Shown: piece by piece, positions 25,805 to 60,838 of the stretch
Layout: every line of letters begins with the position of its first letter
How positions within the stretch are numbered: position 1 is the stretch's first letter
Source: Nitzschia sp. DOCU1
Taxonomy: Eukaryota; Bacillariophyta; Bacillariophyceae; Bacillariales; Bacillariaceae
Direction: 5' to 3'
Length of the DNA: 64,000 nucleotides
Assembly: GCA_951394045.1 (NCBI GenBank)
Contig: OX595985.1
Location: forward strand, 3,224,001-3,288,000
Translations under genes and position numbers: made by a program
Notes under the pieces: generated by a model
Seen by the model: only the letters and a program-made list of their open reading frames with translations
Databases searched by the model: none
Told to the model about the DNA's origin: nothing

Positions 25805-26440
25805 TTAATCACCATTGGATCGTGTGAAGAGAATGTTGTTGAGAAGAGTATAGTAGTCGGCTGGGCCAAGTGGCTTAGTGAGGATATCAGCCCTGTTTGC
25901 TTTAGAGCGAATATGAGCGACACGGACAATGCCAGCAGCGACAGCTTCTCGAACTTTGTGGTAAGCGATTGCATTATGTTTCTTCTTGAGAGTACTTGAG
26001 GGTAGCGTGGTATTTTTGACAACAGCTTCATTATCCATAAGAAGGGTAGTAGGTGTGTCAATACGTACACCCATCATACGCAAACGATAGCGGAATTCAA
26101 TAGCCTTTTCAACGGCAATGCGCCCTGCAACAAACTCAGAACCATAGGTGGAACTTTCGACAGTGTTCTGTAGTTTAGAGTAGGAATGAATGGGAGTGCG
26201 CTGAACACAGAAGAGTAATCCTGTAGTACTGCGTCCAGTGAGTTGGCAGTTACCATGGTTGGAATCGGCATAAATGGTTGTATGAACACTGCAAGTAACA
26301 GGTTCTGGAGCATCTTCAGGAATTTCATCTTCAGCATTGAGATAGATAGACTTCCAATCATGCTCAAGGAACGTGAAATGATCATAGGAAGGATCATTGG
26401 TATCAAATACGGTGTTTGGGGTGGTGTTTGAGGTAGCCAA
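25805..26440 (-). pseudogene. Copia-3 pol: RNase H (frame-shifted)
   Basis: The RNase H domain continues pol in another frame after a one-base shift around 26430 (LKHHPKHRI to VFDTNDPSYD). It has IYADSNHGNC (Asp), TYGSEFVAG (Glu), LLMDNEAVV (Asp) and ANRADILTKP (Asp), so all four catalytic positions are present. The stop at 25805 lies just inside the 3' LTR border. Confidence 0.85.
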
Positions 26441-43180: not shown

Positions 43181-44315
43181 TGCATTTGATACCAAAAGGA
43201 GGCGTGTCGAATACACGGAAAGGCCATGGGACTTGCTGATTGCAGACAGCTCACCCTTGCATATTCCTGGTAGATAATTGAAGTTCCAAGATCTCGCCCA
43301 ATCCAAGATACCCGAAAGCTTGTATCTTCAGCAGATAGTGTCGCATGTAGTTGTCGCATCATTAAAGAAAGCGAATGGCGCTGCTGGTCGATGCACGCCA
43401 TGCCCAACAGAAATTGTAAACGATGATAGGTGAATGGCTTAACGATCGCTAGTTGAACGCGGATGCCATCCAAGTATTTGAACTTGTTTGGACGACCGTA
43501 GTTGCATTGAGGATGGCTCACAATCGTTTGGCGCTAACAGATTGTTGCATTTTCCCATTTCACTGCGTGTGCGGGGGTATACATCAATTACGCCAACTCA
43601 CACTAACTGGTAACGTTTCCAAAGGCATCACAAGTTCTGATCTTGCCCGAGACGATATAGCTCCTGCACATTNNNNNNNNNNNNNNNNNNNNNNNNNNNN
43701 NNNNNNNNNNNNNNNNNNNNNNNNNNNNNNNNNNNNNNNNNNNNNNNNNNNNNNNNNNNNNNNNNNNNNNNNNNNNNNNNNNNNNNNNNNNNNNNNNNNN
43801 NNNNNNNNNNNNNNNNNNNNNNNNNNNNNNNNNNNNNNNNNNNNNNNNNNNNNNNNNNNNNNNNNNNNNNNNCCATTAACATCCGGTACGGTTAATGTAG
43901 CCAATACCGGTTCAATTCGAAAATGTACTTAGTGGCGTTCCGACCGTTGTAAATTCGCTGTAATAAATCGCTGTAATTGGTCCGTCCTTCCATCCGGAAA
44001 AGAGCCTAATTACGCTAAATCTGTCGCACGGTCGGAAGGTGCCGAAATGAATTGGGTAATAAGATTCAAATGGGTCCCGTAGAATTGTAGCAATGTCTCG
44101 GCTTTACCGAGTGCCACCATTCATGGCGCCATCGGCATCAATCCAACTGTCGAGCAACTGTTCTATGCTGCAACCAGCATCACAGACAAACAAATCTTTC
44201 TCCGCCATTCAAACCTTAATAATTTACCCTAATTCAAAATGACAGCTTACACTACTCAAACTTCCGAATGGAATCCACACAGAGCATTGTCTCATAAAAT
44301 GGAAAATCAATCGTG
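43181..44315. other. Intergenic region with assembly gap
   Basis: No gene supported. It includes the run of 200 N at 43673-43872, a standard-size scaffold gap, so an unknown amount of sequence is missing. Confidence 0.6.
43673..43872. other. Assembly gap (200 N)
   Basis: Exactly 200 undetermined bases, the usual placeholder for a gap of unknown size. The order and distance of features across it should not be relied on. Confidence 0.99.
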
Positions 44316-44719
44316 ATGCCGCCTAACAAAGATAAATATCATGCACCGCCCCCTGTGCCCCTGGCTGACCTGCCTAAATCAAGAGCCCACCTAGGCGATC
44401 TTGCGACTTGGATGGCCATGCTGCAAGACATGGGTAAGCCAAATCCCAAAAAGAACAACCTCTTGGAGTATCCACTTCTCGACTCATACTGCCGCCATTT
44501 GGTAAAGCGCATTTTGCCCTGCAATGTGCCTGGCATCCCGTCAAACCAAACACGGATCAAGGAGCAAATCCAGCAAGCAATCATTGGGCTTCGCAAGAAG
44601 GTGCTTCGAAGCAGTCTCTTTCCAAACCTCGTTGAAGGCATTCCAGCCACTGATGATAATCATGTGTACCATATTGAAAATGATCAGGACTATGCTGGAT
44701 TTGATAAGGTCATGAATTT
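44316..44719 (+). pseudogene. Hypothetical protein truncated by the 16-kb transposon
   Basis: From ATG 44316 (MPPNKDKYHAPPPVPL) a frame of about 135 codons reaches the left inverted repeat at 44720, after which it reads transposon sequence to a stop at 44810. The native part has LDSYCRHLVKRILPCNVPG and QIQQAIIGLRKKVLRS, probably helical and basic. The codons after 44719 (IRGPANAHPH...) come from the TIR. I do not recognise the protein, and no continuation could be identified right of 60676. Confidence 0.45.
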
Positions 44720-44741
44720 CATCAGAGGGCCGGCAAATGCA
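44720..44741 (+). repeat. Left terminal inverted repeat
   Basis: 22 bases starting CATCAGAGGGCCGG, the reverse complement of 60655-60676 except at one position. Confidence 0.75.
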
Positions 44742-44819
44742 CACCCCCATAATTTCAATTCTACCCCCTTTCCATGCCAGCATATTCTTGATACATATGC
44801 CTGCACTTGACATCGGCTC

Positions 44820-45318
44820 CAAATCCATATTAAGCCAGCCCTAAATGCGGCATATTCCGTGGCGAATATTCACCTCCAAAGTAGAATGCTGCATCCAAAT
44901 TCACAACTAATGCAGCATCCCCATGTAAACATCTACATCAATGAAGCAGAATGCAATATCCAGACTCCACTTCCGTTATGCACACCCCGCACCCCCGCCA
45001 TACCACCTTCCAATCTCATGTTAGCCTTCAATCTGTATCCATCAACACTAAACCCCACTTTGTGTACCTCATTCCCATGATTCAACCAACAATGCCCCCC
45101 CCCTAGGCATGACAATACCTCAATGCTGGAGGGGATCCCCACAATCCAATGTTGGTTCTCAAGTTTTCGCATCATCGCCTCAATGCTGGACCCCATACCA
45201 ACAATCCAATGCCGGTCCTCAAGTTTCACCCCTCTTGCATAACCATTCTAATCTAACCATAATGCTAATCCTGAACAGTCAAACATTCCTTTCCATCTCC
45301 ATTTATCATTATAGAACT
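44820..45318. other. Left subterminal region with 60-bp tandem pair
   Basis: No gene supported. A 60-bp unit beginning CTCAATGCTGGA occurs at 45119-45178 and again at 45179-45230, about 80% alike. Its position just inside the left end suggests subterminal transposase-binding repeats. Confidence 0.6.
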
Positions 45319-46421
45319 CTACACACCCACATCCATTAGCCGCATAAGTTTTGACATTCCATTTCTCACCTCCACTCGTCCTGCAAACTTCCTCTTGCTC
45401 TTACCCAAATCTTTCCTCTGTACTAATTTTTTCACTCTTTCATCAAAGGACTTCCTACTTCCCAACGCCAGTCTTTGTCTCTCCAGCACCGCAAAAACCA
45501 GATTGTACAATACCATAGCCTCATCCGACCATCCCGAATACTTGCCAGTACCCCTGGAGCAATCGGTGAAGCGGGAAGGAACCCCAGCACTACTTGGAGT
45601 TGCAGCCGTCAACCCACTAGTCAAAGTGGCACTATCTTCATTTCCCCACTTCCAGTATTCGTTCATGAATTTGTCATAGTTGTTCATATACAGCAACACA
45701 GCAAAACTTTCCATTGGTACTTCCACATATTCACTCAACAACTCCCAATGCGACCTTCCATATCTCCTCTGCCCTCTCCCGCCTGCATCTCTTTCAACAA
45801 AAACACTGACAAACTCAGCCCAGAACCTGGCATATTCCTCCTTACCCACACCCTCACCCAGACCCGTTCTTGACCAACGTTGTATCTTAACCTCATCAAA
45901 CTCATCTTCCTCCAAATCCTGCCCCTCCTGCGCATCCGCTTCCTGCTCTGTGCCGGACGACCCATCAGAGTTGTTAGGTGCAACAGCCAACACTACTGGA
46001 AATCCTTAACAACCAAACATTCCCGTTAGTACACGATCTAGGAAAACACCCCCCATTCTTGAATGGTACTTACTCTGACTGTCCATATCCACTGGTATAA
46101 ACATCTTTGGATCTGGAGGTTTCACCTTATCACCCTCCTCATTCACCGGTGGTTTCTCACAGTACTTTCTAAAGGCCACATTCAAGGCATTGTATAGTGT
46201 ACTTCTTTTCCTTCTAACCGCCTCCTCATAGGAGGAACATCCGACAACAGACCAGAAATCCTCTGCATACTGGTCCGGCACACCCACATCCTTACAAGCT
46301 GCCCTCTGTGCAACACTACCAAACTGCACGAGAACCATGGAATTAATAAACTGCATGTGGACAAATGCTTTCTCGTACACAAAGTTTTTGACATCATTTG
46401 ACCACCTGGGGTAGTAGGTTC
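45319..46421 (-). CDS. Hypothetical protein with introns, cargo of the 16-kb element
   Basis: At least two exons: 46421-46074 and 45995-45319, separated by a 78-bp intron (45996-46073; donor GTAAGT, acceptor TTCCAG; the splice keeps the frame, MDSQ-I-VLAVAPNNSD). The upstream exon opens after an acceptor-like CTAGCAG at 46422 with GTYYPRWSNDVKNFVYEKAF, so a first exon further up is likely but not identified. In total about 340 residues are visible. Part 1 has PDQYAEDFWSVVGCSSYEEA. Part 2 has an acidic stretch (EEDEFDEVKIQ), then EEYARFWAEFVSVF, and a basic C-terminus (KDLGKSKRKFAGRVEVRNG). No family recognised. It is convergent with nothing and lies nearest to the left end. Confidence 0.6.
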
Positions 46422-47330
46422 CTGCTAGCGCCTAAGCCGCCGTGACCATACAACAACAAGGTCAGTTGTCAATTACTCATATTCTACAAACAGCTATGAC
46501 AATTTACCTCCTCAGATACGGCCAGTTGTTGTACTGCCATTTTTCAAATAATATTGTGGTTCCGCCTTTCTTATGGTGTTTGCTGCTGCAGGGGGCTGCT
46601 CACAACACCACCGCTGCTCACAACACCACCACGGACTGGCAACACCACAAGCTTTCCCCCCACGTGTTTTCCATTCAAATCACAGGCTTATGTCCATCAA
46701 TTCAAAAGTATGTCTTCACGACATTACCCTCCTATTAATTTTCTATAGCATTCAACCTCTATGCCATACTAGCTCAATTCAAAACATACTTTCCAAACCC
46801 CCACCGCTCCACTGCTAATTGTACCAGGCAGTCATCCAACGACAAGACCTGCCTTCTCACCTTTCCTCTTTTTTCCATGGGCATATTTAAAACACCCAAG
46901 CCATTTTGGTGTCGCACCACGACACTGTCACAATTTCTCATTGTGTGACCTTTTTGTAATCTCACAAAAGGGCATATTTGAACTGGGACACCTCAACCGG
47001 ATTTTCCGTTCCATTTTAAGGATTATTAGTGCCATTCAAAGGATATTATTAGGACGGTGCAATTCCATTATTGCCTGATATTCTTGGTGTTGTAGGTACT
47101 AAAGAAAGGTACGGTAGAAACTGCTTATGTACTTACACCAGATAAAAAGGAAGCCATAACCGGATTAATGCAACCATGTAATTCGAATGATTTTACGAGG
47201 CAAACCTGCGCACAACCCATGATCGCTTGTTAATTTTTCCGTACTAATCTTACTGTGTTTTCAATTTTTATAAGCACAGGCTGCTAAATAGCATCACCCT
47301 TTAAATTTAATAGGTTTGATCGGCACCATC
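46422..47330. other. Intergenic region of the 16-kb element
   Basis: No gene supported, although the unseen first exon of the minus-strand gene may lie here. It contains a short CACAACACCACC tandem (46610-46645), GGGCATAT at 46879 and 46970, and one copy of the 39-bp dispersed repeat (46939-46977). Confidence 0.5.
46939..46977 (+). repeat. Dispersed intergenic repeat, copy 1
   Basis: Starts CATTGTGTGACC and ends AAAGGGCATAT. Related copies, all in the same orientation, lie at 53969-54005, 58107-58143 and 58392-58430, each in a spacer next to a gene of the 16-kb element. It is followed by GGATTTTCCGTTCC and AAGGATTATTAG, words that recur near the other copies. Confidence 0.7.
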
Positions 47331-48535
47331 ATGCCATCGAACGTTTCAATTCTCTATCGAAACTTACGACTTTTGTTGCCGTCATTGTCCCCTTCCTCCC
47401 TAATAGTGGCAATGTCAATGCCACCATTACCACCGGCCCTACCTTTAAAGGTGTCCCTTCTCATCGGCAGCTACTGGGACTGCATGCCCTACTTGGAGAG
47501 AATGATATTATATCGCGGAGTTGTAAAATTTTGTTACATTGACATCAAAGAGTCCACGATCAAAGAATGGGAGGAGCTTCTATCTGTCCACCCATGGCTA
47601 GGGAAATATCCTATTGAGCTTAAATTCACCAACCCTGCGGGCGGCGGTGCTCCACGTGGTGGTGGTCCTCCATCTCGTTTTGCAACTTTAATGAAATACT
47701 TTCCATCCTTACAGACCATATCTCTACTGGATGGCGTCTTGAATCTAAACAACGAACAAAAAATAGCATCCTCCCTACTGCAATGCACCCAAATCACACA
47801 TCTGGAAATAGAATACTCCCACCACATAATGGTTGGCAATTCCCTCCCAAGTCACCCATGCATTCCCTGCTCTTGGCTACCGGCCTCCCTCGAGCAGCTA
47901 ATCAAGCTGAAAACATTGTTAGTAGACGGCTACACAATTGGAGGAGCCGGTGGATTAAGATTTCTTCGTTCCATTTCAAAGCTCGCAAACCTGAACACGC
48001 TCATTATAAGCAATTGCAAGGTGGGCCAGAGCTGTCGCACGGTACTTGGCTCCACCCTCCAACACCTACCAAACTTGAAGTCACTACACCTCGACTCTGT
48101 CAAACTATCACTGACTGGTGGTCAAGGCCTCTTGCACGGGGTGGTCACGATGCAAGAGCTTGCATTTCTTGACCTTGGGAGTTGTCGACTTGGTCATAGG
48201 GGGTTGGGTTGCATGTCCCTATCCTTTCACTGCCTTCCAAAATTGGCGGTGCTGATTCTCCAAGACAATAACCTAACATGTGCCGGGGCACACAAGTTAC
48301 AGAAACATGTCCACCATCTTGTCGCTTTGGAAGAACTCAACTTGGAAGCAACAAGATCGGTCCAAATGGCATGCAAGCCATCATGAACTTCATAGAAGGA
48401 AATGGTGCATCGGCCCTAAAGTACCTGTCCCTTGGCGATAACTTATTCGCCTGTGAGAAAAAGGAGGATGTAATGGTACGGTTGCACCGTCATTTGCCAG
48501 AGTTGCAAATTAAGTGGAGCCTTGATGTTGTTTAA
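47331..48535 (+). pseudogene. Leucine-rich-repeat protein (one frameshift)
   Basis: From ATG 47331 about 350 codons, then a one-base shift near 48345 (EELNLEATR in one frame, QLGSNKIGPNGMQAI in the other) and a stop at 48533. At least five LRR units of the ribonuclease-inhibitor type are visible: LSIKTLLVDGYTIGGAG-like, LNTLIISNCKVGQSC, LKSLHLDSVKLSLTGG, LAFLDLGSCRLGHRG and LAVLILQDNNLTCAG, with LEELNLGSNKIGPNG spanning the shift. LRRs bind other proteins. In this place it would be cargo of the DNA transposon. The shift could be an assembly error; an RNA read would settle it. Confidence 0.75.
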
Positions 48536-48712
48536 TTCTAAAACAACCAGTCCACTTTTTCTTTTTGGTCCATTCTTTAGTAGAGAATACTTATCAAAAA
48601 AAAAGGTGACGGGCACGTGCGTACTTGTCTATTTTGTTCTTAATTTTTGGGTGGCGAAGTAACGGATTTTTGGGTAGCAAAACACTTCTTTCATCTGCAC
48701 CACACGACCATC

Positions 48713-51700
48713 ATGGTGAACCCAAAAAGCAAAAGGTTCATGTGCGCAACGTGCCTCAAATGTTATAAAAGCCTCTCTTCACACTACAACCAGAGTTGGA
48801 ACTGTAATCCACGAACTAGAGGGCCATCTGCATCTTGGATGGGGGGCCGGCAAGCATTCGCAGCTGGTTCTCTACTTCAGCAGGTGCCCCCGCCACCCTC
48901 ACTGGCAGGAGATCAGGAATTCGACAACTGTGGTATTCACATTCCTGACATGGCAGCTGAAGATGAGGAAGAGAGTGACGACGACGGAGGTGGTAAACCT
49001 GCATCTGTTCCAGAACGACGCCTCCTTTCCCGTGTGCGCACACAGCGAGTATGCCTCCAGAAACCAACGACAGGTTCCAAAAGAACTAGCAATAAATCCG
49101 GCCCACGAGAAAGGTTGGAGAGGTACCAGGGCAAGACAGCTTGTATTCCATCTTTTGCTTCAGATTTGGACGGTGATAGCACAGATGAGGACAGCAACCA
49201 CGGGGATGGCTGGGTCATTGAACACAACTTTCACCTAAACCAAAATCCGGACAGAAATGTTACCAAGCTCGGCAATTCCACGGCCACCGTGGGCAATAGT
49301 TTTGCATTGGCCTCCCAAGTGGACGGTCAACCTGATGCAGAAATGGAGTTGGGCACCATGGAAGAGAAACTGGCATCTGACCCACCTGAAGACATATCAT
49401 TCCCGCTCGATATCCAAGATTCCATGGAGTTTGTTGCTAACGCTTCTGATAGGTCGATGGCGGAGCTTTATGCTCTAACTGACCAGGCTGGTGCTCCACG
49501 ACATCTTATGGATGACATCATTTCAACAATGAAAAGAGAAAAGGAACAAAGAAATTTCAGTCCGTTCATGCCAGGTATCACAACGAGAAAGCACTTTTTC
49601 AGTAGGGTGTCAAGGAAAACCAGCTATCAACCACCTTTTGGAATTAACATAACCTTGGAGTCTGGGCAAAAAGTGGTGGTTAGGAGATTTGACTATCTTA
49701 ATGACCTAGAGGAGAAGTTGGTTTCAGAGGTGTATTCAAATCTGGACAATATCAGGTGCGACATGCGTCACCCCTTTGCCAACATCCCACCCCCGTTGGA
49801 CGATAAACAGGCACCACATCTCCTCGACTTCAGCTGGTATAGGGATACTTACAACTCAAAATTCCTGCCTATGATAGGCGGATCACAGTTCGATCCCTGG
49901 TATCATCTGCTAACCTTATCATTCTATACTGATGCAACAAGTCGAGCACTGCGCTCCATTGAACCAGTCGCCTTGGTGGATTCACGTCTTACCGATGTGG
50001 CTAAACGGGACCCTAACAATTGGATTATTATAGGCTATATGCCTTATATAGAGGCCTATTCCTCGGCAACAAGACGAGCCTACCAGTCGAGGGCTGCCTC
50101 CACAGACATGACCGCAAGGGACTACCATCTGTGTATGACGGTACTCTTGGAACCACTTCTAGACTTTGTCAACAGAAAACCCAAATTGATGATAAGACGT
50201 GGTCAAGTTTTACGATCTCTTAAGATTGTGACCGAGTTTTCTGTGTTCACCCTCGACAACAAGGCAGCCGACATGGTATGTGCAAGGCTGAAAAACATGC
50301 AACCTGGCTCTGTGCGAATGACTAGGCGTTGCTACTGTAATTTTGATGACACGGCAAAGCCACTGCATGGCTGTTTCCCGGTCGATGCATACTTTGTACA
50401 GGCACTGTCACAGGCGGCACTTGGTTGCACATATGGCTGTTTTGGTGTCGATAATGCTGATGTTAATGTCCCAGTGGATGATCAACCTCACATCAGGAAC
50501 CTGATCAAAGCAAGGATGGGGGTTAGAGAAGGGAACGCCCTAGCCAAGAACATGACCATAAATGATGCCGTCAATCTGCCCAGCATACCTTTGAGCGAGA
50601 ACCTTGATTCCTGGTTGCAATATCTGGACATATTTACAAACAAGGTCAATAGGGATGCTGCCATTAAGGCTAGGGGGGTGCGGGAGAGGTTGTCAGAGTC
50701 TATTCTCAGACAAGTTTTTGGGAGTAAGGCTGTGGACAACCCATTTGCCCGCTTACCGTATGGTGCAAACATCAATGGAATCCACTCAGTCACCACAGCA
50801 GACATCCTCCACACAATGAAGAGTGGTGTTATCCAACACTTTCTCAACCTTGTGATAGGACCAATGACCGATGGATCAAAGGCAGCAATTGACAGGCATG
50901 TGGAACAAATGTTTGCAAAAGGCTTAAACCGTTCCGGTGAGGCAAGCAATTACCCCCGGGTCTCCTTTCGTAAAGGATTTACCAAGCTTACTGAGCTTAC
51001 AGGATCTGAACGTGTTGGTCAACTCTTCGTCCTTGCATTCTTATTGAGAACTAAGAAGGGCCGAAAACTGTTGTTACCAAGACTGGCCGCCAACTTTGAC
51101 GAGAACAAGAATAAGAACAGGGATAAAACAGTTGCAGTTGAGGGAGCAAGTAGGAAACGCAAAAGGATTGCACCTGCTGCAGGCCCCCACGCAACAAGTA
51201 TTGCAAATGCCGGAACAGGCTTGTCACGGGATGAGGCCCTGCAATTCCTGCGACTAGACAAACTTGTTGTTGAGATGGAGAAGGTACATAGTCTCCCCCA
51301 CAACTTGCACGTCCGATTAGAAGAGGTTTTGAAAGAATTCTTAACCAAGGATTGCAGGCAGAAGCTGTACAAACACAAGACACGCATACTGCAATTGCCG
51401 ATGGCGATATCCATGGATTACAGGTGTTCCATTGAACCCACCGGCAGCCGGGTAGATCGGAACCACCATGAACAGTCTCAACAGGTGGTTATGTTTCCAC
51501 CCTCAACTATTCACTTTGATTGTCAAACTGCAGGAGTGCACCGCACCTGTACCCTGTCAATTGACCATCTATCCTATCTATGTGAAACTCTTCTAACATA
51601 TTGGGCCTTTCTTGAATATGCAGACAGGGAGATGTTATCCACTGAAAACATCTCAAGGGCATCCGCCAACCTTGAATTGATGCGAAGAGTTCTTGTAAAT

Positions 51701-52666
51701 GGTACTAGCCGGGGATTTGGAACTAATGGATACTCTTATCAAAAGTTTATCGAGATGTTCCATCTACTCATGGAGACACCCGTCTATGGAAGGGCGAGTG
51801 GGAGAGACACCAATGATGGTGAAAGACACTTGAAGGTATGGGCAGTCCGTCCGGCCAAGACTGCACAAAAGAGGGACGATGGAACTTTCACAGGTCAGAT
51901 TTCCATAAGGAGGGCGGAGAGCGAAGTCCTTGGGAAAATTCTGAAATCTAACAGAGTACAGAACCGGAAGGCCGGTGGTCAGCCTACTCATAATGGCAGC
52001 AAAAGCGTGGGTCGTTACCGTGTGCAATCTGAGAATGAAGGTACCTATTTGTCATTTAGAACAGGCAAAAACAAGGACATAAGCTTTGAGGTTGATCCTT
52101 TGATAGTCCATTGGTTATCAAATGAGACCCCTTTGCTGGAGGATGAGACAGCCGAGCCTATTTACATGTACACCAAGACAGAACTTGCGGACGGTTCCAT
52201 CATACGTTGTCATCCTGACTTTGAAGGCAGGGGCCCCAGGTATGATTGTGTATCCATTCAAGAACAGTTGGGTGGTCAAATGATTATCCGGCCGGCCAGG
52301 GTGGTTGCATTGCTTCACATGCTAGATGAAGTCAACATTGGATGCGATGCACCGGCGAATGCTGCACTTGTGATGAAAGTTATTGAAAATGATGCTTCGC
52401 ATGTGGACAACAGTCAATTGTTCCGGAAGTGGACGTGGGCAAGCGATAAAGTTGGTGATGTCTACCATAGTAGACTACACCTTGTTCCAATGACAAGCAT
52501 CAAAAGAACAATCTATTGTATAGATGAGGTTCCTTGCCGATCACTCACCAAACCAAGCCTCGATTCTTTCCGTACTTTGGAATGCCGCCACTTGCGCACT
52601 GAGTGGGCATCACAATTCTTGACCAAAAGTTCTTCCTACCTCCACAAGAAGATGCAGGGAATTTAG
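48713..52666 (+). CDS. Plavaka/CACTA-like transposase
   Basis: 1317 residues from ATG 48713 (MVNPKSKRFMCATC); the frame extends to a TTG at 48647. A zinc finger at the N-terminus has Cys11, Cys14, His24 and Cys31, the layout of Plavaka-type transposases. An acidic, poorly structured linker runs to about residue 230. The core has WYHLLTLSFYTDATSRAL (Asp about 407, candidate catalytic), then DPNNWIIIGYMPYIEAY, the cysteine-rich RRCYCNFDD and GCTYGCFG, and NPFARLPYGANINGI followed by TADILHTMKSGVIQH (about 697). The last block matches the 'NPFW-LP...PDILH-xxKG' signature I associate with Plavaka transposases. The family call is by motif memory and moderate. ORF intact, no introns. Confidence 0.6.
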   Translation: MVNPKSKRFMCATCLKCYKSLSSHYNQSWNCNPRTRGPSASWMGGRQAFAAGSLLQQVPPPPSLAGDQEFDNCGIHIPDMAAEDEEESDDDGGGKPASVPERRLLSRVRTQRVCLQKPTTGSKRTSNKSGPRERLERYQGKTACIPSFASDLDGDSTDEDSNHGDGWVIEHNFHLNQNPDRNVTKLGNSTATVGNSFALASQVDGQPDAEMELGTMEEKLASDPPEDISFPLDIQDSMEFVANASDRSMAELYALTDQAGAPRHLMDDIISTMKREKEQRNFSPFMPGITTRKHFFSRVSRKTSYQPPFGINITLESGQKVVVRRFDYLNDLEEKLVSEVYSNLDNIRCDMRHPFANIPPPLDDKQAPHLLDFSWYRDTYNSKFLPMIGGSQFDPWYHLLTLSFYTDATSRALRSIEPVALVDSRLTDVAKRDPNNWIIIGYMPYIEAYSSATRRAYQSRAASTDMTARDYHLCMTVLLEPLLDFVNRKPKLMIRRGQVLRSLKIVTEFSVFTLDNKAADMVCARLKNMQPGSVRMTRRCYCNFDDTAKPLHGCFPVDAYFVQALSQAALGCTYGCFGVDNADVNVPVDDQPHIRNLIKARMGVREGNALAKNMTINDAVNLPSIPLSENLDSWLQYLDIFTNKVNRDAAIKARGVRERLSESILRQVFGSKAVDNPFARLPYGANINGIHSVTTADILHTMKSGVIQHFLNLVIGPMTDGSKAAIDRHVEQMFAKGLNRSGEASNYPRVSFRKGFTKLTELTGSERVGQLFVLAFLLRTKKGRKLLLPRLAANFDENKNKNRDKTVAVEGASRKRKRIAPAAGPHATSIANAGTGLSRDEALQFLRLDKLVVEMEKVHSLPHNLHVRLEEVLKEFLTKDCRQKLYKHKTRILQLPMAISMDYRCSIEPTGSRVDRNHHEQSQQVVMFPPSTIHFDCQTAGVHRTCTLSIDHLSYLCETLLTYWAFLEYADREMLSTENISRASANLELMRRVLVNGTSRGFGTNGYSYQKFIEMFHLLMETPVYGRASGRDTNDGERHLKVWAVRPAKTAQKRDDGTFTGQISIRRAESEVLGKILKSNRVQNRKAGGQPTHNGSKSVGRYRVQSENEGTYLSFRTGKNKDISFEVDPLIVHWLSNETPLLEDETAEPIYMYTKTELADGSIIRCHPDFEGRGPRYDCVSIQEQLGGQMIIRPARVVALLHMLDEVNIGCDAPANAALVMKVIENDASHVDNSQLFRKWTWASDKVGDVYHSRLHLVPMTSIKRTIYCIDEVPCRSLTKPSLDSFRTLECRHLRTEWASQFLTKSSSYLHKKMQGI

Positions 52667-53800
52667 TGTTTGAAAACAACTATGAATGTACGCTTGAAAT
52701 TAGTATTACACAAACAAGAAGCACTGCATTCCTACTTTAATCCATGAGTTATGTAGTACATCGAGCCCACAATATCCCCTTTGCGCGCACATGCGCATCA
52801 TTACCTGGGTTGAGCTAGGTACCAAAATTCTAAACTATGAAGTCCACTCTCTCACAAGTCAGTAATGGTACTTCATTGAGTACATCCTTTCGATCCCAGC
52901 CAAATATTTTCAGGAAGTCAGCAGGGAAGGTTAGGATCCTAACTTTATGTTGTCGTGTATATGGCAGTTTTCAAATAAAGAGGCAGGTAAGATAGCAAAG
53001 TCACTGAGTGTTGCCTAATAATAGGCTGTGCACCTCCAATACAGCTCTATTCCAACATATTATCAATTCATCATATACATTTTGTAATTCAGCATCTAAA
53101 AATGCCTCGCTACGTATGAATGAGTTCCTGGGCCCAAAGATATGGGTCTTTGAAGCGGGCTAGCTGAAACAAACACCCCATTTGTGCATTTGAATAAGTG
53201 GGTCCGTGTAATGGTAATAGGTAAACCACCATAGTTTGACCTCATTAACAAATGCTTGTAATTACAACTGGAAGGTCAACAATATCAATTTAACTATACG
53301 TTTGATATCCGTTTGGTTGAGTAATGTTATGTCATAGAGTACAAGAGACCATTGTTGTCCACCTAAAGTAACACTCCTCCTCCAATAAATCCTTAATCCA
53401 CTATGTTATCAAGTTTCCAAGTTAGCATTTTAATTGCGCATCTAACGAGTCCTTGCTATAATCAATCTTGTGCCTATGTCAAAAGATGTGTGATCTTAAA
53501 GACGGCCCCTAGAAATGGACCCCATATTCAAGGAAAAGGAAAAACGTGTCTGGCAATTGTAAAAGTTGTGCCCTGTTAGTTTGCCTACAGCAAACATTCC
53601 TCACAAATTTAACCAGCAGGTGAACGGCGTGAGTTCAATCATACCATCTATATCGCTATTGTCGAGGAATGTTAGGTCAAAGAGTACCAAAGAACATTGT
53701 GGTCCCCAAAAAGCTACATTACTCCTTCAATAAAATCATATCCCAAAATGTTATCAAATTACCATGTACGTGTCGCAAATCTTCATCTTATGACACCTTT
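52667..53800. repeat. Degenerate ~350-bp tandem repeats downstream of the transposase
   Basis: No gene. Three units related along their length: the landmark (T)CCAATA...TTATCAA recurs near 53035, 53381 and 53731, that is every ~348 bases. Upstream of it, AATGTTATGTCATAGAGTAC at 53323 recurs as AATGTTAGGTCAAAGAGTAC at 53671. Units are about 60-70% alike by eye. Confidence 0.65.
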
Positions 53801-54177
53801 CAATTTTGAAACAGATGCCTGCATGGAAAGATACGGCTATGTAAAGTTGGGACTTTATTCTATAGTTTCCAAAAGTTGGTACGTGGCACGAGTGGTTGGT
53901 AAGTGCAGCATATGCCCTTCTGAGGGGTCACATTATGAGCCAATTTGTGCCGACCATCTCTTCCCCCTATTGTGTGACCATTTAGAAACCTATGATGGGG
54001 CATATTATATCAGTCCTCTGCGATAGGGTTTTTTTGTGTTTGCATTATGACCTGTGTTCCCATATGTGGATTATCGGCTACCAGTCAAGGATTATTAGTT
54101 CCCTCAAATGGATTTATTTATGATTAAGTGTAACTCTACAGTGGAAACGGTTCTATTGTTTGATCTTTAACCTTTAT
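53801..54177. other. Spacer between convergent transposase and 1240-codon gene
   Basis: A 109-codon frame here (ending near 54026) starts from a TTG and shows no motif, so it is not called. The spacer holds dispersed repeat copy 2 (53969-54005) and the second word AAGGATTATTAGTTCC at 54091. Confidence 0.5.
53969..54005 (+). repeat. Dispersed intergenic repeat, copy 2
   Basis: ATTGTGTGACCATTTAGAAA, then GGGGCATAT; same orientation as copies 1, 3 and 4. Confidence 0.7.
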
Positions 54178-57100
54178 TCAAATACAGCCAATCAGTCCGC
54201 CATCCACCGTAGCCACCCCATTCCAGTCACCAACAAACCTTCCAATTGCATTCTCCAAACTCTCCCATTGACGCTCCTTGGATAAGAATTGTATCCAGGT
54301 TTTCTTGGTACCCTCTTTTACCCGGATGGGGGTATACAGTGCCCCGTCATTTGACCACAGAATGAGATCTTTTTTGCGGCGGTCATCCTCAGTAATCTGC
54401 CATCGGTGGAAAAGGCAGCAGCATTGGTCCAGCCAGGACATGGTTGCATAGACCGAATGTCGACGGAGGACACTTATTGTTTTGTTTGCAATGGCATTTG
54501 CCTCGGAGGTGGAAAGGGAGTCCCCGGTACTTTCACCTGCAAGGTATTCCACAGCCTTGTAGAAGCCTGATGATCCCTTAGTAAGCATTGCCCATGTAGC
54601 GTAGGGAAGGGGGATCAGCATAAGACATGCTGCCAACTGGATCCCCACACTTAACCTCACACATCCAAGTTGTATATTCTCGGTCACACGCTTGCCCAGT
54701 TTTTGCTTACGGTACTCGGCGGAGGTAAGCATCTGCAAGGCTTCCTGCTGTGACTGTTGGTTACCATTTAACAACTCAAATTGACTTGTCAAAAAACAAA
54801 TGAAGAGTCCACAGTCCTTTCGGCTTTTGTCCAAACCCTTTGTATCAACATCGAACAACATCCGGTCAATTTTTTGGTACCGAAAGTCTTTACACGATAT
54901 CACCCCGGAATGACCACGGTTGCCAATGACCTGAAGTGATAACCATTCGTATAAGGCCTCCACTCTTAAGTCTCTTAGAATGGTTTCCGTCTCGACCCGG
55001 CGCCCCTTATTCAACTCCTGTTCCATTAACCCGATGATCAGTGTTTGACCATTGCATTCTCTGGTGATGAATGCTACAAAAGATGCGGTGTGGCGGAAAG
55101 TGACGACTGGTGAGTACATTCGCACAAAACGAGCCCAGACGTTGACAAATGATCCAATGTACCAAGACCGGTTGGCAGACTCTGGTATGGCTTGATGTTG
55201 GAACGGGTAGTCATATCCAACTGTCATTCGTGGGTTGAGGTTTTCGGAAAAGCGTTGGAAGTGCTGTGGTTGGTCCAGTTTGCTTGCATCCTGCCAGAAG
55301 TCAACCTCATTTAGTGCCATCATTTCCTTGATGAGAGGGTCATCGATGTCGGCAAGTCCCTCCATCTGCGCTGCCTGAGAATCGTTAATTGACCGACCGT
55401 AGTTGACCACTGTGACAGAGGAGCCAACAAGGGGCACCTGGCTTGACAAGAGTTTGGAAATGTTTTCCTCCCTCTTAACATGGTTGCGCCAATCAATCTG
55501 TTTTGTCACGACCGTCACTTGGTCTGAATGACCGACCTTTGCTCCGTTCATTGAGTCGAAATGTAGATATGCGCTACCTATCAAAACCGAAACGGCATCC
55601 GAAATTCGTAGACCAGTTGTGCATAGATTCCTTTGTTCCAACGAAAGAGACACAGGTAAAAGGAAATCTAACCACTCCTTGACCACCTTTAGACGGGTAT
55701 TGTCATTGCGGCTCTGGCGATCATATTCGGCTAGATGCCCCACCATAATCTCCAAAATCTGGTGGTGAGCGATCACATTCAGCCTAAAGAGGGCACTCCG
55801 GTAGGAATCGGACAGGATTTTGGAACTTGCGAATAGACCTGGGGTTGCGACACCAACCCCATTGGCCCGCTTCCAAGACTGGCCTGCTCTTGGACAACTA
55901 CCATTGTGCTGTGCGATAACATTGCGGAAGGAGTCTATGCTCGAATTGTCGATCATCTCGTCTGCATGCGAGAGAAGGCTGTCCATCGCCCAGTCGAGCT
56001 GAACCAGGTAGGAGCAGCCGAGCAGGGAAGCAGGCATCTTGATGAGAGACCCCAGTGCTTTGTCTTGAATACCGGCAACATCATGAGTGTTGATCACACA
56101 GGGTCGGTTGCTATTGAGGAACAAATGGTCGACATTGTTTGCCATGATTTCTGGTGTAATGTTGTACCTCTTGGCGAACTCTTCTAAGAAGCCTCGGCCC
56201 GACACCGTGTGCACCTTCTCTCGCAAACCGAACCAAAGGGTGCACGAGATTTTGTCCGATTTTTCAACCCAGTAGCTCTCAGGCCCGAAATTGCTTTTTA
56301 TCAATTGCTCGTTGGCGAGGCGGAAATTGCGACGCAGCATGGTCGATGACATCTTTTGGTCCCGTGGTAGAATGGCCAGCGTCCCCTTTGGTCCCGAGGT
56401 TGAGTCGGCCATCTTCATTTCTTTTTCGATTGTGCGGTTGACAGCATCATGATCTCCCTGCATCATCTTGGCCTTTGTTGGGCGATCGTTGTGGCGTGGG
56501 TTTGATGGAGGTTTTACAACCCGGTCTTTCTTGGTTTCCCTCTCTTGCCATTCACAGCTAGAGCCGTCATCACAGCTCTGATTGTCTTCATCGTCATCCG
56601 GGATAACACCGGTCCACCAATCGGTCTTCACTGCCCGCTCGACAGCAGACCTGGCTGGCGAGCGCAATGACAGGGACTGGCAACACATGCGCCTTGGACG
56701 CAGGTACAAATGGCAAAAAGGACAAGTCACTTGATCCCTGCTATTATTTACAAGGTTGGCTGGTTGTGCCTCAGGCACATCGCTGGCCTCGCGACGACTT
56801 AGGCAGAGAAAACGGCACCTTAAAGTAGCATCAGGGAAGCATAGCGGGAGCAATTCGTAGAGTAGTGAAGGTTTGGTGACGCAGGTAGTCTCCAGGAGTT
56901 CTTCCACCTCGCTCCTTAGGACACCGTTGGGCAGTACCCCATCGTCCTTTCCTAGCAATTTAAGATCCAAGCTGTCGGTAACTCTTTTGAGCACCATCTC
57001 CTCTTCCTGATCCGGTCGCAGAAATCGTAAAAGGAAATGACATTCCAGAAATGGAGTCCAATTCTCGAAGATCCTCTGCAAAATTGGGAAGGAGAGGGGT

Positions 57101-57900
57101 AGGTACACTCGACCTCCCTTCGGCATCCGGCCCGATGCCAAGTCAGGAAGGAAACTTTGACAAAAATCTCTGCTAATGATGCCCAACAAATACTCCGATG
57201 GCATCCAAATGTAGTCAACGTAAACCTCGTTGAAGATAAGCTCGGGTGGGAACGGCTTTGCCCGTCGGTAGCTCGTCAGGTCCATGTCATAGTGGAACCT
57301 GGAATTGGTAGGATTGCGATTGACAGTGTAAACCCGCCGTTGAATTCCATCGTTTTCAGTTGCAACAATCCGCGCTTCATCTCGTATCCGCTGCCGTAGG
57401 GAGGATGGTAGCTTTGTCGCCTCTTGGTACAAAGTTTCAATATTTCGAACATAGCCAGGGCGTTCCATTCCGATGTAGAGGATGTTGTAGTCGCGACGAG
57501 GGGGTTTTCGTCCATTACGAAGCCTTCTCATGGACGCATTTTTCTTTTCCCGGTTACATTTGTACCGAGTTGAAAGTTCGTCGTAAACAAATTGATGTAG
57601 TACCAATAGTTTAGGATCGCGGCTGTGGAGGAAGGTTGTTTCTTGGACATCAAGGGATTCTGCTCGTTGGTTTGCTGTGACGATGATTGTGTCAGCGCCA
57701 ATCGAGGATGTTGGAAGAAGAACTTTTTTGTTAAAAAAGAACACAAGGGCTCGCCGTTGATCGGTCTCTTGTGTGTATACGGCGCTGATTGCACGATAAA
57801 TAAAGCTCCTCTTAGTAAGGTGGATAGAGGCGACGCCTTGAACATCCACAGAAAGGGTCGGCTCGGTTCGACCACCCGAGCGTTTGTAGGATGAGGTCAT
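54178..57900 (-). CDS. 1240-residue protein of unknown function, partner of the transposase
   Basis: One uninterrupted frame from ATG 57900 (MTSSYKRSGGRTEPTLS) to 54178, convergent with the transposase. I recognise no family. Visible parts: a basic segment near residue 125 (RRLRNGRKPPRRD), a Cys-pair motif (VTCPFCHLYLRPRRMCC) that may bind zinc, an acidic/basic low-complexity linker (PDDDEDNQSCDDGSSCEW, then KKDRVVKPPSNPR), and a long C-terminal helical region with FAKRYNITPEIMANNVDHL, GLRISDAVSVLIGSAYL and SRKDCGLFICFLTSQFEL. There are no signal peptide or clear membrane segments. An ORF of this length kept open in an element suggests an essential role in transposition, such as target capture or a second subunit. 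That is inference. Confidence 0.7.
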   Translation of the reverse strand: MTSSYKRSGGRTEPTLSVDVQGVASIHLTKRSFIYRAISAVYTQETDQRRALVFFFNKKVLLPTSSIGADTIIVTANQRAESLDVQETTFLHSRDPKLLVLHQFVYDELSTRYKCNREKKNASMRRLRNGRKPPRRDYNILYIGMERPGYVRNIETLYQEATKLPSSLRQRIRDEARIVATENDGIQRRVYTVNRNPTNSRFHYDMDLTSYRRAKPFPPELIFNEVYVDYIWMPSEYLLGIISRDFCQSFLPDLASGRMPKGGRVYLPLSFPILQRIFENWTPFLECHFLLRFLRPDQEEEMVLKRVTDSLDLKLLGKDDGVLPNGVLRSEVEELLETTCVTKPSLLYELLPLCFPDATLRCRFLCLSRREASDVPEAQPANLVNNSRDQVTCPFCHLYLRPRRMCCQSLSLRSPARSAVERAVKTDWWTGVIPDDDEDNQSCDDGSSCEWQERETKKDRVVKPPSNPRHNDRPTKAKMMQGDHDAVNRTIEKEMKMADSTSGPKGTLAILPRDQKMSSTMLRRNFRLANEQLIKSNFGPESYWVEKSDKISCTLWFGLREKVHTVSGRGFLEEFAKRYNITPEIMANNVDHLFLNSNRPCVINTHDVAGIQDKALGSLIKMPASLLGCSYLVQLDWAMDSLLSHADEMIDNSSIDSFRNVIAQHNGSCPRAGQSWKRANGVGVATPGLFASSKILSDSYRSALFRLNVIAHHQILEIMVGHLAEYDRQSRNDNTRLKVVKEWLDFLLPVSLSLEQRNLCTTGLRISDAVSVLIGSAYLHFDSMNGAKVGHSDQVTVVTKQIDWRNHVKREENISKLLSSQVPLVGSSVTVVNYGRSINDSQAAQMEGLADIDDPLIKEMMALNEVDFWQDASKLDQPQHFQRFSENLNPRMTVGYDYPFQHQAIPESANRSWYIGSFVNVWARFVRMYSPVVTFRHTASFVAFITRECNGQTLIIGLMEQELNKGRRVETETILRDLRVEALYEWLSLQVIGNRGHSGVISCKDFRYQKIDRMLFDVDTKGLDKSRKDCGLFICFLTSQFELLNGNQQSQQEALQMLTSAEYRKQKLGKRVTENIQLGCVRLSVGIQLAACLMLIPLPYATWAMLTKGSSGFYKAVEYLAGESTGDSLSTSEANAIANKTISVLRRHSVYATMSWLDQCCCLFHRWQITEDDRRKKDLILWSNDGALYTPIRVKEGTKKTWIQFLSKERQWESLENAIGRFVGDWNGVATVDGGLIGCI

Positions 57901-58106
57901 GTTTGGAAAGGATTATGTGAGCCTTCAAACGGATTTTCTGTGATGGTGTTGGGCTGCTGCCGCATCCTGGACCCTGCATACCAGGATAGAGATGGGTCGA
58001 TTCGATTCATTCCACTCACCAAAAATGATTTCGTGGTAGGTTTTCTACACGGGTAGGTGGATTAGACACTTCTGCAGTACTGAGTAAAAACTTGTCTCGA
58101 CGGCTC

Positions 58107-58143
58107 ATTGTGTGACCGTTTAGAAATCGATGAAAGGGCGTAT
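58107..58143 (+). repeat. Dispersed intergenic repeat, copy 3
   Basis: ATTGTGTGACCGTTTAGAAA, then AAAGGGCGTAT; one base differs from the GGGCATAT consensus. Confidence 0.7.
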
Positions 58144-58391
58144 TAAATTAATGGGTCTACGATTGGCTGATTTTATTTCCTTTGTATTATCGTGTCTGTG
58201 GCGTTGGTTGGATAATCGGTTACCTTGAGAGGATTATGTGTTCCTTCAAACGGATTTTCTTGACTAGCTCGAATAGTGTGGTGGATAGGACAGTGGGCAT
58301 ATGTGATTATTTTGGCAGCCGTTTTCATTGGTGGGATCAGGTGGATAAATCCTCTTTGATTGGATACCGTATTTCAAAAGATGGAACCGGC

Positions 58392-58430
58392 CCATTGGGT
58401 GACCCTTCAGAAATCATTGCATGGGCATAT
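58392..58430 (+). repeat. Dispersed intergenic repeat, copy 4
   Basis: CATTGGGTGACCCTTCAGAA, then ATGGGCATAT; the most diverged of the four. A further lone GGGCATAT lies at 58295. Confidence 0.65.
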
Positions 58431-58549
58431 CAAAATTTGAGAAGTCTGATTGGTTGTTGTGTTGGAGCCGTTGCTTGGCGAAGAAGGTTGTTGGAATAGA
58501 AGCAAAGGGTAAGTGATGAATTTGTTGTGGCAGTCGTTGTAGATTGAAA

Positions 58550-59542
58550 ATGGAGGAGGCAGTTGCACCACCCGTCCCAGCTGTGGGGGCACCACAGGAT
58601 TTTATTACCGATTACCCTAGGCGGTATTTCAATTTCCGTACACAGGTTGTCTTGCATGGCAAGAGTAAAGGTCGAAGATTGAGGCAGATGTTGCTGCAGA
58701 AACGAGAAGAATTGAAAGACCGGTCGCTGAAGCTGGAAGCTGGAAGAGATGTTGCTCACGAGATTGGTTTCCTTTTCGGCTCATGGATGGCAAACAAGCT
58801 GTCAAGCAGGACGGTTAGGCGAGATACAAAGAAAAAGGTGGAGTTGCCCGATGGTTCTGTCAAATATAGGAGATTGCGATACGATAATTGGGAGGACGAG
58901 TTCAAGGATCTTGGGTTTATTTTGTTGCACGATGTTTTCGATGAAGATGGGCTGACAGCAATCCGCAGTGAATTATTTGATAGGAGCAGGAAGAAGGCTC
59001 GACAAGGTGATGAATTCAAGTGGGAGACCATGTTTAACGGAGCGGTCAGTCGAAAATATCTGTTTGAGCAAAAGGCAAGTGGGCGATGGGGGATAAAGTT
59101 GGATGGTTGCCCGGTCACTTCGGGTTTCATCGATGGACTGAAGGAGGTCATGGGGTGGTTGGAGAGACGGTATTGTGATGTTGCGTACATCAAGCCTTTC
59201 AAGAATCAAGCTGCTATTGCCGCTGGGAAGAAGGATCCAGAGTTGCACGTGGATATGGATACGGACGAGCTCGAGACGACCAGGTGGGGGTGTCCGGAAT
59301 ATCCCATCGTGATATTTTTAAACCTCGACAATGGCAAGATGTTGAAAATTTGGCATCAGAAACTTGGTGGTACTAGGGGGCGGCACGGAAGTCCCTACCT
59401 AATGGAGGTCCCTCCAGGTGCTGTTCTTATATGGGATCCCACCAAGTTCAAGCATGCTACAGCTGCCATAATGGCAGATCCAACCTATACAGACCCACCT
59501 CACCGGGTGAATATATTATTGCATGGAGTGGGAGGATTGTAG
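58550..59542 (+). CDS. Candidate Fe(II)/2-oxoglutarate-dependent dioxygenase
   Basis: 330 residues from ATG 58550 (MEEAVAPPVPAVG). The second half has the facial triad and cosubstrate pattern of the double-stranded beta-helix oxygenases: His233-x-Asp235 in ELHVDMDTDE, the strand YPIVIFLNLDNGK, PGAVLIWDPTKFKHATAA with His302, and HRVNILLHG with Arg319. Known members oxidise bases in nucleic acids (TET/JBP, AlkB) or protein side chains. The N-terminal third is basic and charged (KSKGRRLRQMLLQKREELKDR, cut here to its landmarks GRRLRQ and KREELK) and could bind DNA. Intact ORF with its own spacer repeats, divergent from the 1240-codon gene. The spacing from His302 to Arg319 (17) is longer than usual, so the call is tentative. 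The substrate is unknown. Confidence 0.55.
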   Translation: MEEAVAPPVPAVGAPQDFITDYPRRYFNFRTQVVLHGKSKGRRLRQMLLQKREELKDRSLKLEAGRDVAHEIGFLFGSWMANKLSSRTVRRDTKKKVELPDGSVKYRRLRYDNWEDEFKDLGFILLHDVFDEDGLTAIRSELFDRSRKKARQGDEFKWETMFNGAVSRKYLFEQKASGRWGIKLDGCPVTSGFIDGLKEVMGWLERRYCDVAYIKPFKNQAAIAAGKKDPELHVDMDTDELETTRWGCPEYPIVIFLNLDNGKMLKIWHQKLGGTRGRHGSPYLMEVPPGAVLIWDPTKFKHATAAIMADPTYTDPPHRVNILLHGVGGL

Positions 59543-59649
59543 TAAATAAATTAAATAAAGAATAGATTGAGCTAGTTCTTTATTACTAGTATTAATGTTG
59601 TGGTACTGTCCGGTAGGATCGTTGGAGACCGTTGATTAGTGGATGATAC

Positions 59650-60045
59650 TTACTTAGTTTGGTTGGTAGGTGCCACAAAGTTGTGAACTTCTGTTATATG
59701 AAGGGACATAGCAAGGCTGCGGTCTGCTTGCATTTGGGGTGTCTGGTTGATGGCGCTTTCTGGGTTTTTCTTCTTTTGCTGGGCTGTTCCATGAAGCCAC
59801 TGTGATATAGTAGATTGGTTGGGTTCATGTGGAGTATGAGTCTTTTTCTTGGTATAAGAAGAGCGCCATTTGCGGTAGTGCGAGCGGACTTTGATTCTTC
59901 CCCGTTTGTTGTTGTTCGTGGTGGCCACAGGGGCGGTCATGTCACGGAGACGCTTTGCTAATTCCGATAGGGGAAGCTGCGGAAATCCCTCTGCATCGAA
60001 GTAGGTATCTTCTGGGTCTTGGGTAATGTTGTTGGGAGTCGGCAT
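59650..60045 (-). CDS. Small basic protein of the 16-kb element
   Basis: 131 residues from ATG 60045 (MPTPNNITQDPEDTYFD), convergent with the oxygenase gene. Acidic N-terminus, then a basic middle (NNNKRGRIKVRSHYRKWRSS, KKKTHT) and QSTISQWLHGT. The last segment loosely fits a PCNA-interacting peptide (Q-x-x-I-x-x-aromatic-hydrophobic), a motif found in several transposon proteins. One loose match in a short protein is weak evidence. Confidence 0.45.
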   Translation of the reverse strand: MPTPNNITQDPEDTYFDAEGFPQLPLSELAKRLRDMTAPVATTNNNKRGRIKVRSHYRKWRSSYTKKKTHTPHEPNQSTISQWLHGTAQQKKKNPESAINQTPQMQADRSLAMSLHITEVHNFVAPTNQTK

Positions 60046-60654
60046 TTGGTGGCAGGCAGTGGGCGATTTGTGTGTAGTAGGAAGTTGAGGAGTGGGTTTT
60101 GTCTTTTATGCCACAATGATATTGGGCGTGAAAAACTTGCGGCAGGGATTACCGTTGATATAGGATTGGCAGTTGATGGGGCGTGTAAGTGAGTTGCAAC
60201 GGTAGCATTTGAGATGGATTGCTAGATAGAATTTGGAAAGAGGATGGGAATTTCACGTTAGAGGGCCAAGTTGGAAGGGCAGTTCCTAAAGTTGAGAGAA
60301 TCTGGAATTTGCTTATGGGGACTGGGAGGTTGACATAGGAATGCGGGGGGTTGGTCCAATCTTTATGGTTACATCATAGGTTGGATGCACGGGTAGTGGA
60401 TGTGGTTCAGGATTAGAGTACTGGGTTGAAAGTGTGGATGATGAATGTGAAAGGGAATGTTGGTGCGATGTCGGATTTGAGGGCAGACTTTGAATGTGTG
60501 GCATGGATGCGACGTGGTTCGGGAGATGAGGGTGGCATGAGGGGGGGGGGGATATGATTTGTTCCTAATTGAGGATTGGGGGGCAATATTGTGGAGTGGG
60601 ATTCTTAAGTCAAATCTATAGGGCATACCTAATTTAAATTCAATAGTACGAGAT
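60046..60654. other. Right subterminal region
   Basis: No gene supported; G-rich on the plus strand with GATTGGGGGGCAATA-type words and a run of 12 G at 60541-60552. GGGCATAC at 60621, close to the right inverted repeat, is a variant of the dispersed GGGCATAT word. Confidence 0.5.
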
Positions 60655-60676
60655 TGCATTTTCCGGCCCTCTGATG
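60655..60676 (-). repeat. Right terminal inverted repeat
   Basis: 22 bases ending CCGGCCCTCTGATG, inverted copy of 44720-44741 with one mismatch. Confidence 0.75.
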
Positions 60677-60677
60677 C

Positions 60678-60838
60678 GGGGGCATATCTGACCTTGATGG
60701 AACCTTGACTGAAGCACGAGCGACCAATTCGGCCGAATCAGAATTCGGGAACGCTCTCATTGGGGGCATATCTGACCCTGATGGAACCTTGACTAAAGCA
60801 CGAGCGACCGATTCGGCCGAATCAGAACTCGGGAATGC
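60678..60838 (+). repeat. 84-bp tandem pair next to the right end
   Basis: Unit 1 at 60678-60754 and unit 2 at 60762-60838 (period 84), differing at about five positions. Each starts GGGGGCATATCTGACC and contains the palindrome GATTCGGCCGAATC (with A/G change in unit 1). The GGGCATAT word links them to the 16-kb element although they lie just outside its right TIR. Confidence 0.85.

Follow-up and report, generated by a model that had tools for sequence, protein, structure and literature searches.

A PlavakaB-like transposon carrying an oxygenase candidate and a giant protein in a diatom genome

Background

What kind of mobile element could bring together, inside one pair of inverted repeats in a diatom, a transposase, a candidate oxygenase and a giant protein that fits no known family? 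The question is raised by a 64,000-nucleotide stretch of the genome of Nitzschia sp. DOCU1 (assembly GCA_951394045.1, contig OX595985.1, positions 3,224,001 to 3,288,000), called the window here, in which an inverted-repeat pair of 22 nucleotides with one mismatch (44720-44741 and 60655-60676) delimits an element of 15,957 bp. An earlier reading, made from the sequence alone, had described this pair correctly and had proposed a diatom transposon with a CACTA/Plavaka-like transposase; the host is borne out by 18 matches to silicon transporters in the genome, often several exons per gene. The whole, the role of the oxygenase included, is best explained by a diatom DNA transposon of the PlavakaB kind that moves by cut and paste and has been active recently, an explanation to which we assign a probability of roughly 0.7.

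Associations between DNA transposons and oxygenases are known in fungi. The KDZ elements (Kyakuja, Dileera and Zisupton) of fungi likewise combine the two, with a different transposase. In those PlavakaB elements of Agaricomycotina that carry TET/JBP genes (Kojima 2025, PMC12730594), a Plavaka-like transposase and an oxygenase lie inside terminal inverted repeats (TIRs), with the same CATCA..TGATG ends and 2-bp target duplications as in the element described here. The fungal Plavaka elements with an oxygenase in that study are all PlavakaB, the signature of which is CATCA..TGATG termini together with target duplications of 2-3 bp (PMC12730594).

Results

Ends and genomic copies

The ends and the three main genes of the element are as follows, in window coordinates:

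44720..44741, plus strand: left TIR (transposase-side end), CATCAGAGGGCCGGCAAATGCA; six other copies have the same sequence at their transposase-side end
60655..60676, minus strand: right TIR (oxygenase-side end), CATCAGAGGGCCGGAAAATGCA read inward; seven other copies have the same sequence at their oxygenase-side end
48713..52666, plus strand: transposase, open from 48644; Plavaka PF18759 at E 2.9e-4; D429, D537 and E1059 (numbered from 48647)
54178..57900, minus strand: giant protein, 1,240 codons; invariant HxDxMN (780-785) and RH...RExNG (936-951)
58550..59542, plus strand: candidate 2-oxoglutarate (2OG)-Fe(II) oxygenase, 330 codons; H235xD237, H304 and R321 (numbered from 58544)

An 11-mer core of the TIR, present twice in the window, was searched in the window's own assembly (52.08 Mb, 63 contigs) and gave 42 matches, where a reversed control pattern gave 13. 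Fifteen of the 42 matches were assigned to ends of the window family at eight loci, namely the window itself (C1:3268k), C1:255k (one end), C5:523k, C6:480k, C10:640k, C11:401k, C12:1928k and C17:1149k. The sequence-only reading had suggested looking for further copies and comparing their boundaries: seven other loci carry ends of the family, and the ends read in these copies fall at the same boundary as those of the window copy. All 15 ends start CATCAGAGGGCCGG and have their first 14 bases in common, and the end of the element is placed at CAT because every one of them reads this way; the search pattern behind them did not contain CAT. After the second GG the two ends differ, with C on the transposase side and A on the oxygenase side.

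Taking all 42 matches as element ends was rejected: among the remaining 27, 14 were read, two of them single and 12 lying within another repeat, GTTACAGAGGGCCGGCGATTTG, while the 13 unread ones are absent from the genome matches listed for both end regions. Copies of this unrelated repeat (L001-L004, L006, L008 and others) have GTTACAGAGGGCCGGCGATTTG in common and hence the 11-mer, perhaps by chance. At C9:111983 (L090) there is a relict end, 84% identical to the transposase end over 77 nucleotides, which is perhaps an older relative.

Transposase and classification

The Pfam Plavaka profile matches five of six aligned transposases, the window protein among them, at a best E of 1.7e-7. The proposed transposon with TIRs and a Plavaka-like transposase is supported. 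D429, D537 and E1059 are invariant in all six and, judging from their position, presumably form the catalytic triad. In PlavakaB, a member of the CMCT clade, C(2)C and H(3-4)H are expected between the last two of these residues; a C(2)C motif was not seen in the window transposase in this six-sequence alignment. A third set of Plavaka-like transposases, taken without delimited element boundaries, lies at C3, C8, C9 and C11 (L035, L037, L038, L033), and its members are 97.7-99.7% identical in long alignments.

Target duplications of 2 bp flank five of the seven two-ended copies (C5, TG; C10, TT; C11, AC; C12, AT; C17, AT), and the probability of at least five of seven by chance is 1.8e-5. With these duplications and CATCA..TGATG termini at 15 of 15 ends, the published signature of PlavakaB is found here, and by ends, duplications and Plavaka match we classify the family as PlavakaB-like. 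It had been suggested that the element may be a new group; CATCA termini with duplications of 2-3 bp are already the published mark of PlavakaB (PMC12730594), so this suggestion falls. Two other assignments were rejected as well. CACTA/EnSpm proper, which has a distantly related transposase within the CMCT clade, is characterized by CAC ends and 3-bp duplications (PMC12730594), both absent here; and for KDZ, Pfam matched Plavaka alone, and the duplication is 2 bp instead of the 7-8 bp of Kyakuja and Zisupton (PMC12730594).

Signs of recent mobility

Fetched stretches of the other copies differ from the window element by 0-2 mismatches per alignment, in alignments of up to 7 kb (the relict L090 aside). 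Complete, identical copies of the giant protein are present at six of the loci, and those of the oxygenase at seven of the eight. A complete transposase is found only in the window and C11 copies. At C6, C10 and C17 the transposase is 1,221 codons long, and the following stretch is missing:

50004..50370, plus strand: absent from the C1:263k, C6, C10 and C17 copies; encodes the second conserved Asp, D537 (query residues 454-575 missing)

Copies with the shortened transposase occupy different sites, and we infer on this ground that they moved in trans. The C12 copy, at 7.4 kb, is an internal-deletion derivative, C10 has an additional 176-bp deletion, and C11 has about 6.3 kb extra between the element end and the oxygenase. 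True internal deletions or duplications at C1, C5 and C17 were rejected, because 200-N gaps sit at the breakpoints.

A sister family and the age of the gene set

Weak protein matches led to a sister family with ends CATCAGGAAAGGGAAAA, which have 39 matches in the genome and none in the control. Target sites were counted in 13 two-ended pairs (26 of the 39 end matches) of 1.5-16.5 kb, and all 13 show a 2-bp duplication; 12 of the pairs are independent, as C11:1994k and C11:2014k have one flank in common. The ends read CATCA..TGATG in 26 of 26 cases, though here the search pattern contained CAT. Among the six pairs longer than 10 kb, four (C4, two on C5, C14) carry oxygenase, giant protein and transposase in the order and orientation of the window element, the C11:1949k pair has the oxygenase and giant protein only, and C11:2014k has none among the matches listed; these gene matches are lower bounds.

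At the protein level the sister family is 31-33% identical to the window family in the oxygenase, 24-25% in the giant protein and 22% in the transposase, and because the same gene order persists at such distances, the association of the three genes is to be read as old. The three-gene set is under purifying selection in the sister family: the ratio of nonsynonymous to synonymous substitution rates (dN/dS) is 0.21-0.29 for the oxygenase (three pairs from three copies), 0.16-0.41 for the giant protein (six pairs from four copies) and 0.09-0.21 for the transposase (three pairs from three copies). Modules seem to have been exchanged between sister subfamilies, since the oxygenase and giant gene of C4 have different nearest relatives, the former being closer to those of C5 and the latter to that of C14. 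Between the C4 and C14 elements (L080, L081 and L049, L050) the two genes differ in history, with 86% nucleotide identity for the oxygenase and 98% for the giant gene.

These data bear on the idea that the element captured the genes of oxygenase and giant protein from its host and carries both as mere passengers, which bring it no benefit. Something of this sort may well apply to the leucine-rich-repeat gene of the same element, the frame of which is broken, and a 623-codon frame at C9:1303593-1305461 (L057), which is not known to lie in an element, shares the N-terminal part of the giant protein (34% over 89 residues, E 5.9e-4). For the oxygenase and giant protein themselves we regard it as very unlikely, as both recur in the same order in the sister family at 24-33% protein identity with dN/dS of 0.16-0.41, and identical copies of them were found at the eight element loci alone, one of these loci showing a single end. 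The sequence-only reading had named cargo genes that stand single-copy and syntenic in related diatoms without the transposase as a refutation of its proposal, and this result does not refute it. Looser relatives of the oxygenase occur at C11:2276k, C42, C8:2096k, C4:2136k and C16, where two-ended elements around them were not established; viral contigs gave no relatives of the transposase, oxygenase or giant protein.

The oxygenase candidate

The oxygenase candidate carries the motif HxD...H...R, which is invariant in the window protein and four aligned sister proteins, three of them re-aligned separately. This alignment left out C5:97k (which has one stop), C11:1950k, C16, the 50% relatives and C4:2136k. 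The contexts of the motif, YPIVIFLNLD, PPGAVLIWD..KFKHAT and HRVNILLHG, are ones that we take to be 2OG-Fe(II)-like and strand-like. The protein is thus probably a 2OG-Fe(II) oxygenase, in agreement with the sequence-only reading, the assignment being a reading of motifs and not homology by score. The PE type of TET/JBP, with HxE in place of HxD (PMC12730594), is not what the window oxygenase has, as it reads HxD.

The giant protein

The giant protein belongs to a conserved family for which no relative was found outside this genome except one JGI protein: this protein, P0003 (1,229 aa), shows 53% identity within the profile region and 48% across the full alignment, and was the only match besides the window's own proteins in protein searches with the giant protein and oxygenase as queries. 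Profile searches gave no notable family or structure match for it. HxDxMN, RH...RExNG and an N-terminal DxxWM motif are invariant in the alignment of giant proteins (A4). By eye alone, the N-terminus looks methyltransferase-like, Pfam and PDB profile searches having given nothing, and the AlphaFold model (predicted local distance difference test, pLDDT, 33) is unusable.

Other genes, spacers and neighbouring elements

The remaining features of the element are:

45319..46431, minus strand: spliced gene, about 344 codons as read; inferred 78-nucleotide intron 45996-46073 (GTAAGT..TACTAAC..CAG); start not placed
47331..48386, plus strand: leucine-rich-repeat protein gene; weak leucine-rich-repeat matches
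59653..60105, minus strand: 151-codon open reading frame, basic; coding status unsupported
46926..47054, no strand: dispersed spacer module, copy 1, in the promoter region between the divergent spliced and leucine-rich-repeat genes
53957..54123, no strand: dispersed spacer module, copy 2, at the convergent 3' ends of the transposase and giant protein genes
57901..58435, no strand: divergent promoter region of the giant protein and oxygenase genes, with more module copies at 57906-57941, 58093-58260 and 58388-58435
53008..53846, no strand: three tandem units of about 345 bp, degenerate (about 60% identity), between the transposase and giant protein genes

Six genes, three of them large and intact, had been proposed. 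The transposase, giant protein and oxygenase candidate do stand as large open frames; the other three fare less well, as one needs an intron, the leucine-rich-repeat frame is interrupted and the 151-codon frame lacks support. The spliced gene resembles DUF6729 weakly, below the cut-off (E 0.0055 for the exon, 0.014 spliced). Leucine-rich-repeat-like sequence runs on in another frame to about 48535, which is why that frame is read as interrupted, and the gene is probably captured from the host. The dispersed repeats that had been noticed in the spacers are real: the best ungapped scores are 76, 31 and 31, and 12 first-order resamplings reached no more than 16.

Elsewhere in the window, 26406-30542 holds a polyprotein frame of Copia type that matches RVT_2 (E 1.8e-23) as well as integrase and chromodomain, and 13129-16632 a frame like that of a long interspersed nuclear element, with endonuclease/exonuclease and weak reverse transcriptase matches.

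Discussion

Proposed mechanism

In the mechanism that we propose, the full-length transposase of the window and C11 copies would bind the CATCAG ends, cut, and insert the element at 2-bp targets, and would move in trans those copies that miss the second conserved Asp. With Fe(II) and 2-oxoglutarate, the oxygenase candidate would oxidise a methyl group, that of 5-methylcytosine on the element being the most likely one; this would keep the element expressed and mobile and let it escape silencing. The giant protein may be a required accessory, perhaps for targeting or as a second modifying enzyme. Oxidation of methylated DNA against silencing is the likely role of the cargo.

Evidence against and alternatives

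Several observations, concerning the locus, the transposase, the oxygenase and the signs of methylation, weigh against this account. At the locus, neither the window copy (TT/CG) nor the C6 copy (GA/TA) has a target duplication, a 200-N assembly gap (43673-43872) lies 847 bp left of the window element, and a run of N lies 39 bp from the end of the C6 element. The sequence-only reading had seen no clear duplication, which is right for the window copy, but the family makes duplications of 2 bp. The two flanks come from different repeats. On the left (44120-44719), a repeat copy at C4:2775k continues uninterrupted past the junction position, as do copies of the right-hand repeat at C13:1770k and C1:3622k, and both breaks coincide exactly with the ends of the element. 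The left-flank repeat holds an open frame that is cut by the element, with copies at C4:2775k and C10:614k; the right flank (60678-60838) has an 84-bp tandem unit, with copies at C13:1770k, C1:3622k and C1:5117k. Because the flanks are from two different repeats and N runs lie near both this copy and C6, the window copy would appear either to have arisen by recombination between two copies or to be a chimera of the assembly.

The chimera, under which the element as delimited would not exist at this locus, is unlikely in our judgement. Besides the flanks, the missing duplication and the N runs near both copies without one, it has in its favour that the C1, C5 and C17 copies are interrupted by 200-N gaps. 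Against this, the window element itself is free of N, C6 and C10 share its ends and gene order with no N inside the element in their fetched stretches, and the junctions lie exactly at the element ends, recombination between two copies accounting for the flanks equally well.

As regards the transposase, the match of the window protein to PF18759 (20.6 bits) is below the curated cut-off of 26.3 bits, and an H(3)H motif, present in sister and third-family transposases, is reduced in the window protein to its second His. As regards the oxygenase, the sister copy at C4:2136577, outside the alignments, reads HxN, the Asp of HxD being lost. The candidate has no Pfam, NCBIfam or notable PDB profile match, its one PHROGs match (one member, E 0.41) lends no support to 2OG or TET/JBP, and no TET/JBP match was found in Pfam, with Tet_JBP (PF12851) or among solved TET/JBP chains. 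Its AlphaFold model has a mean pLDDT of 50, with no Foldseek match at E <= 0.001, and is too poor for a reading of the fold. The Tet_JBP profile found no match in the genome and, over the cut-off, none in the control genomes either, so that this search was without a positive control.

Among the signs of methylation, the transition bias and the host DNA methyltransferase genes speak for the account, and low CpG, which is not special to the element, against it. Sister-copy stretches, compared in five pairs, show 116 transitions in 3,962 sites (0.029) at pyrimidines before G, against 35 in 3,405 before A, 55 in 4,437 before C and 35 in 4,166 before T (0.008-0.012 per site), and the rate is highest before G in all five pairs. 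The element has a CpG observed/expected ratio of 0.64, the remaining window one of 0.88; the ratio is equally low in other transposon stretches, such as the Copia at 24-32 kb (0.54-0.56). Bias and depletion together fit CpG methylation of the elements, in a comparison without a host-gene control. The genome has seven matches to the DNA methyltransferase family PF00145, at six sites.

An element that is PlavakaB, with an oxygenase that acts on protein or RNA (a histone tail, for example) and not on DNA, is an alternative that we hold to be rather improbable. The candidate has no sequence match to TET/JBP and its N-terminal half has no profile match at all, and the site of two histidines and one carboxylate is shared across the 2OG superfamily (PMC12730594). 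The oxygenases of fungal PlavakaB, KDZ, EnSpm and other transposons are of TET/JBP type, in a study that sought these only (PMC12730594), and the CpG mutation bias of the sister copies fits 5-methylcytosine; both argue for DNA as the substrate, as in our preferred mechanism.

A further possibility, which we consider a long shot, is that oxygenase and giant protein together make up a system, borne by the transposon, for rewriting base modification in DNA. In that case the giant protein, with its methyltransferase-like N-terminal domain and HxDxMN centre, would represent a new enzyme family making or extending a modified base, and the oxygenase would be a separate lineage outside TET/JBP. If this were true, the element would mark its own DNA, beyond erasing the marks of the host.

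Relation to known elements

Compared with fungal PlavakaB, the element described here has a diatom host, HxD where the PE type with HxE is reported for Plavaka, no detectable similarity to TET/JBP and an extra giant protein (PMC12730594). The giant repeats of Amoebidium are likewise non-fungal and methylated and place a Plavaka transposase beside large intron-poor genes; they differ in having tyrosine recombinases and tandem clusters of up to 50 kb, and the accessible text mentions no oxygenase (PMC11244446). EnSpm-Plavaka elements of the green alga Auxenochlorella are likewise algal and potentially active, again with no oxygenase mentioned in the accessible text (PMC12633428), and a Chlamydomonas study that mentions Kyakuja makes no mention, in its accessible text, of a TET gene in it (PMC8226300). 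In the literature searched, largely open-access and in part represented by accessible text, transposons with DNA-modifying oxygenases are reported from fungi only. As far as this search extends, a PlavakaB-like element of a diatom with an HxD...H...R oxygenase candidate and a giant protein outside all known families is apparently new. Such a case in a diatom, where the element is apparently still mobile and two divergent families conserve the two-gene cargo, would show that the strategy arose or spread far beyond fungi.

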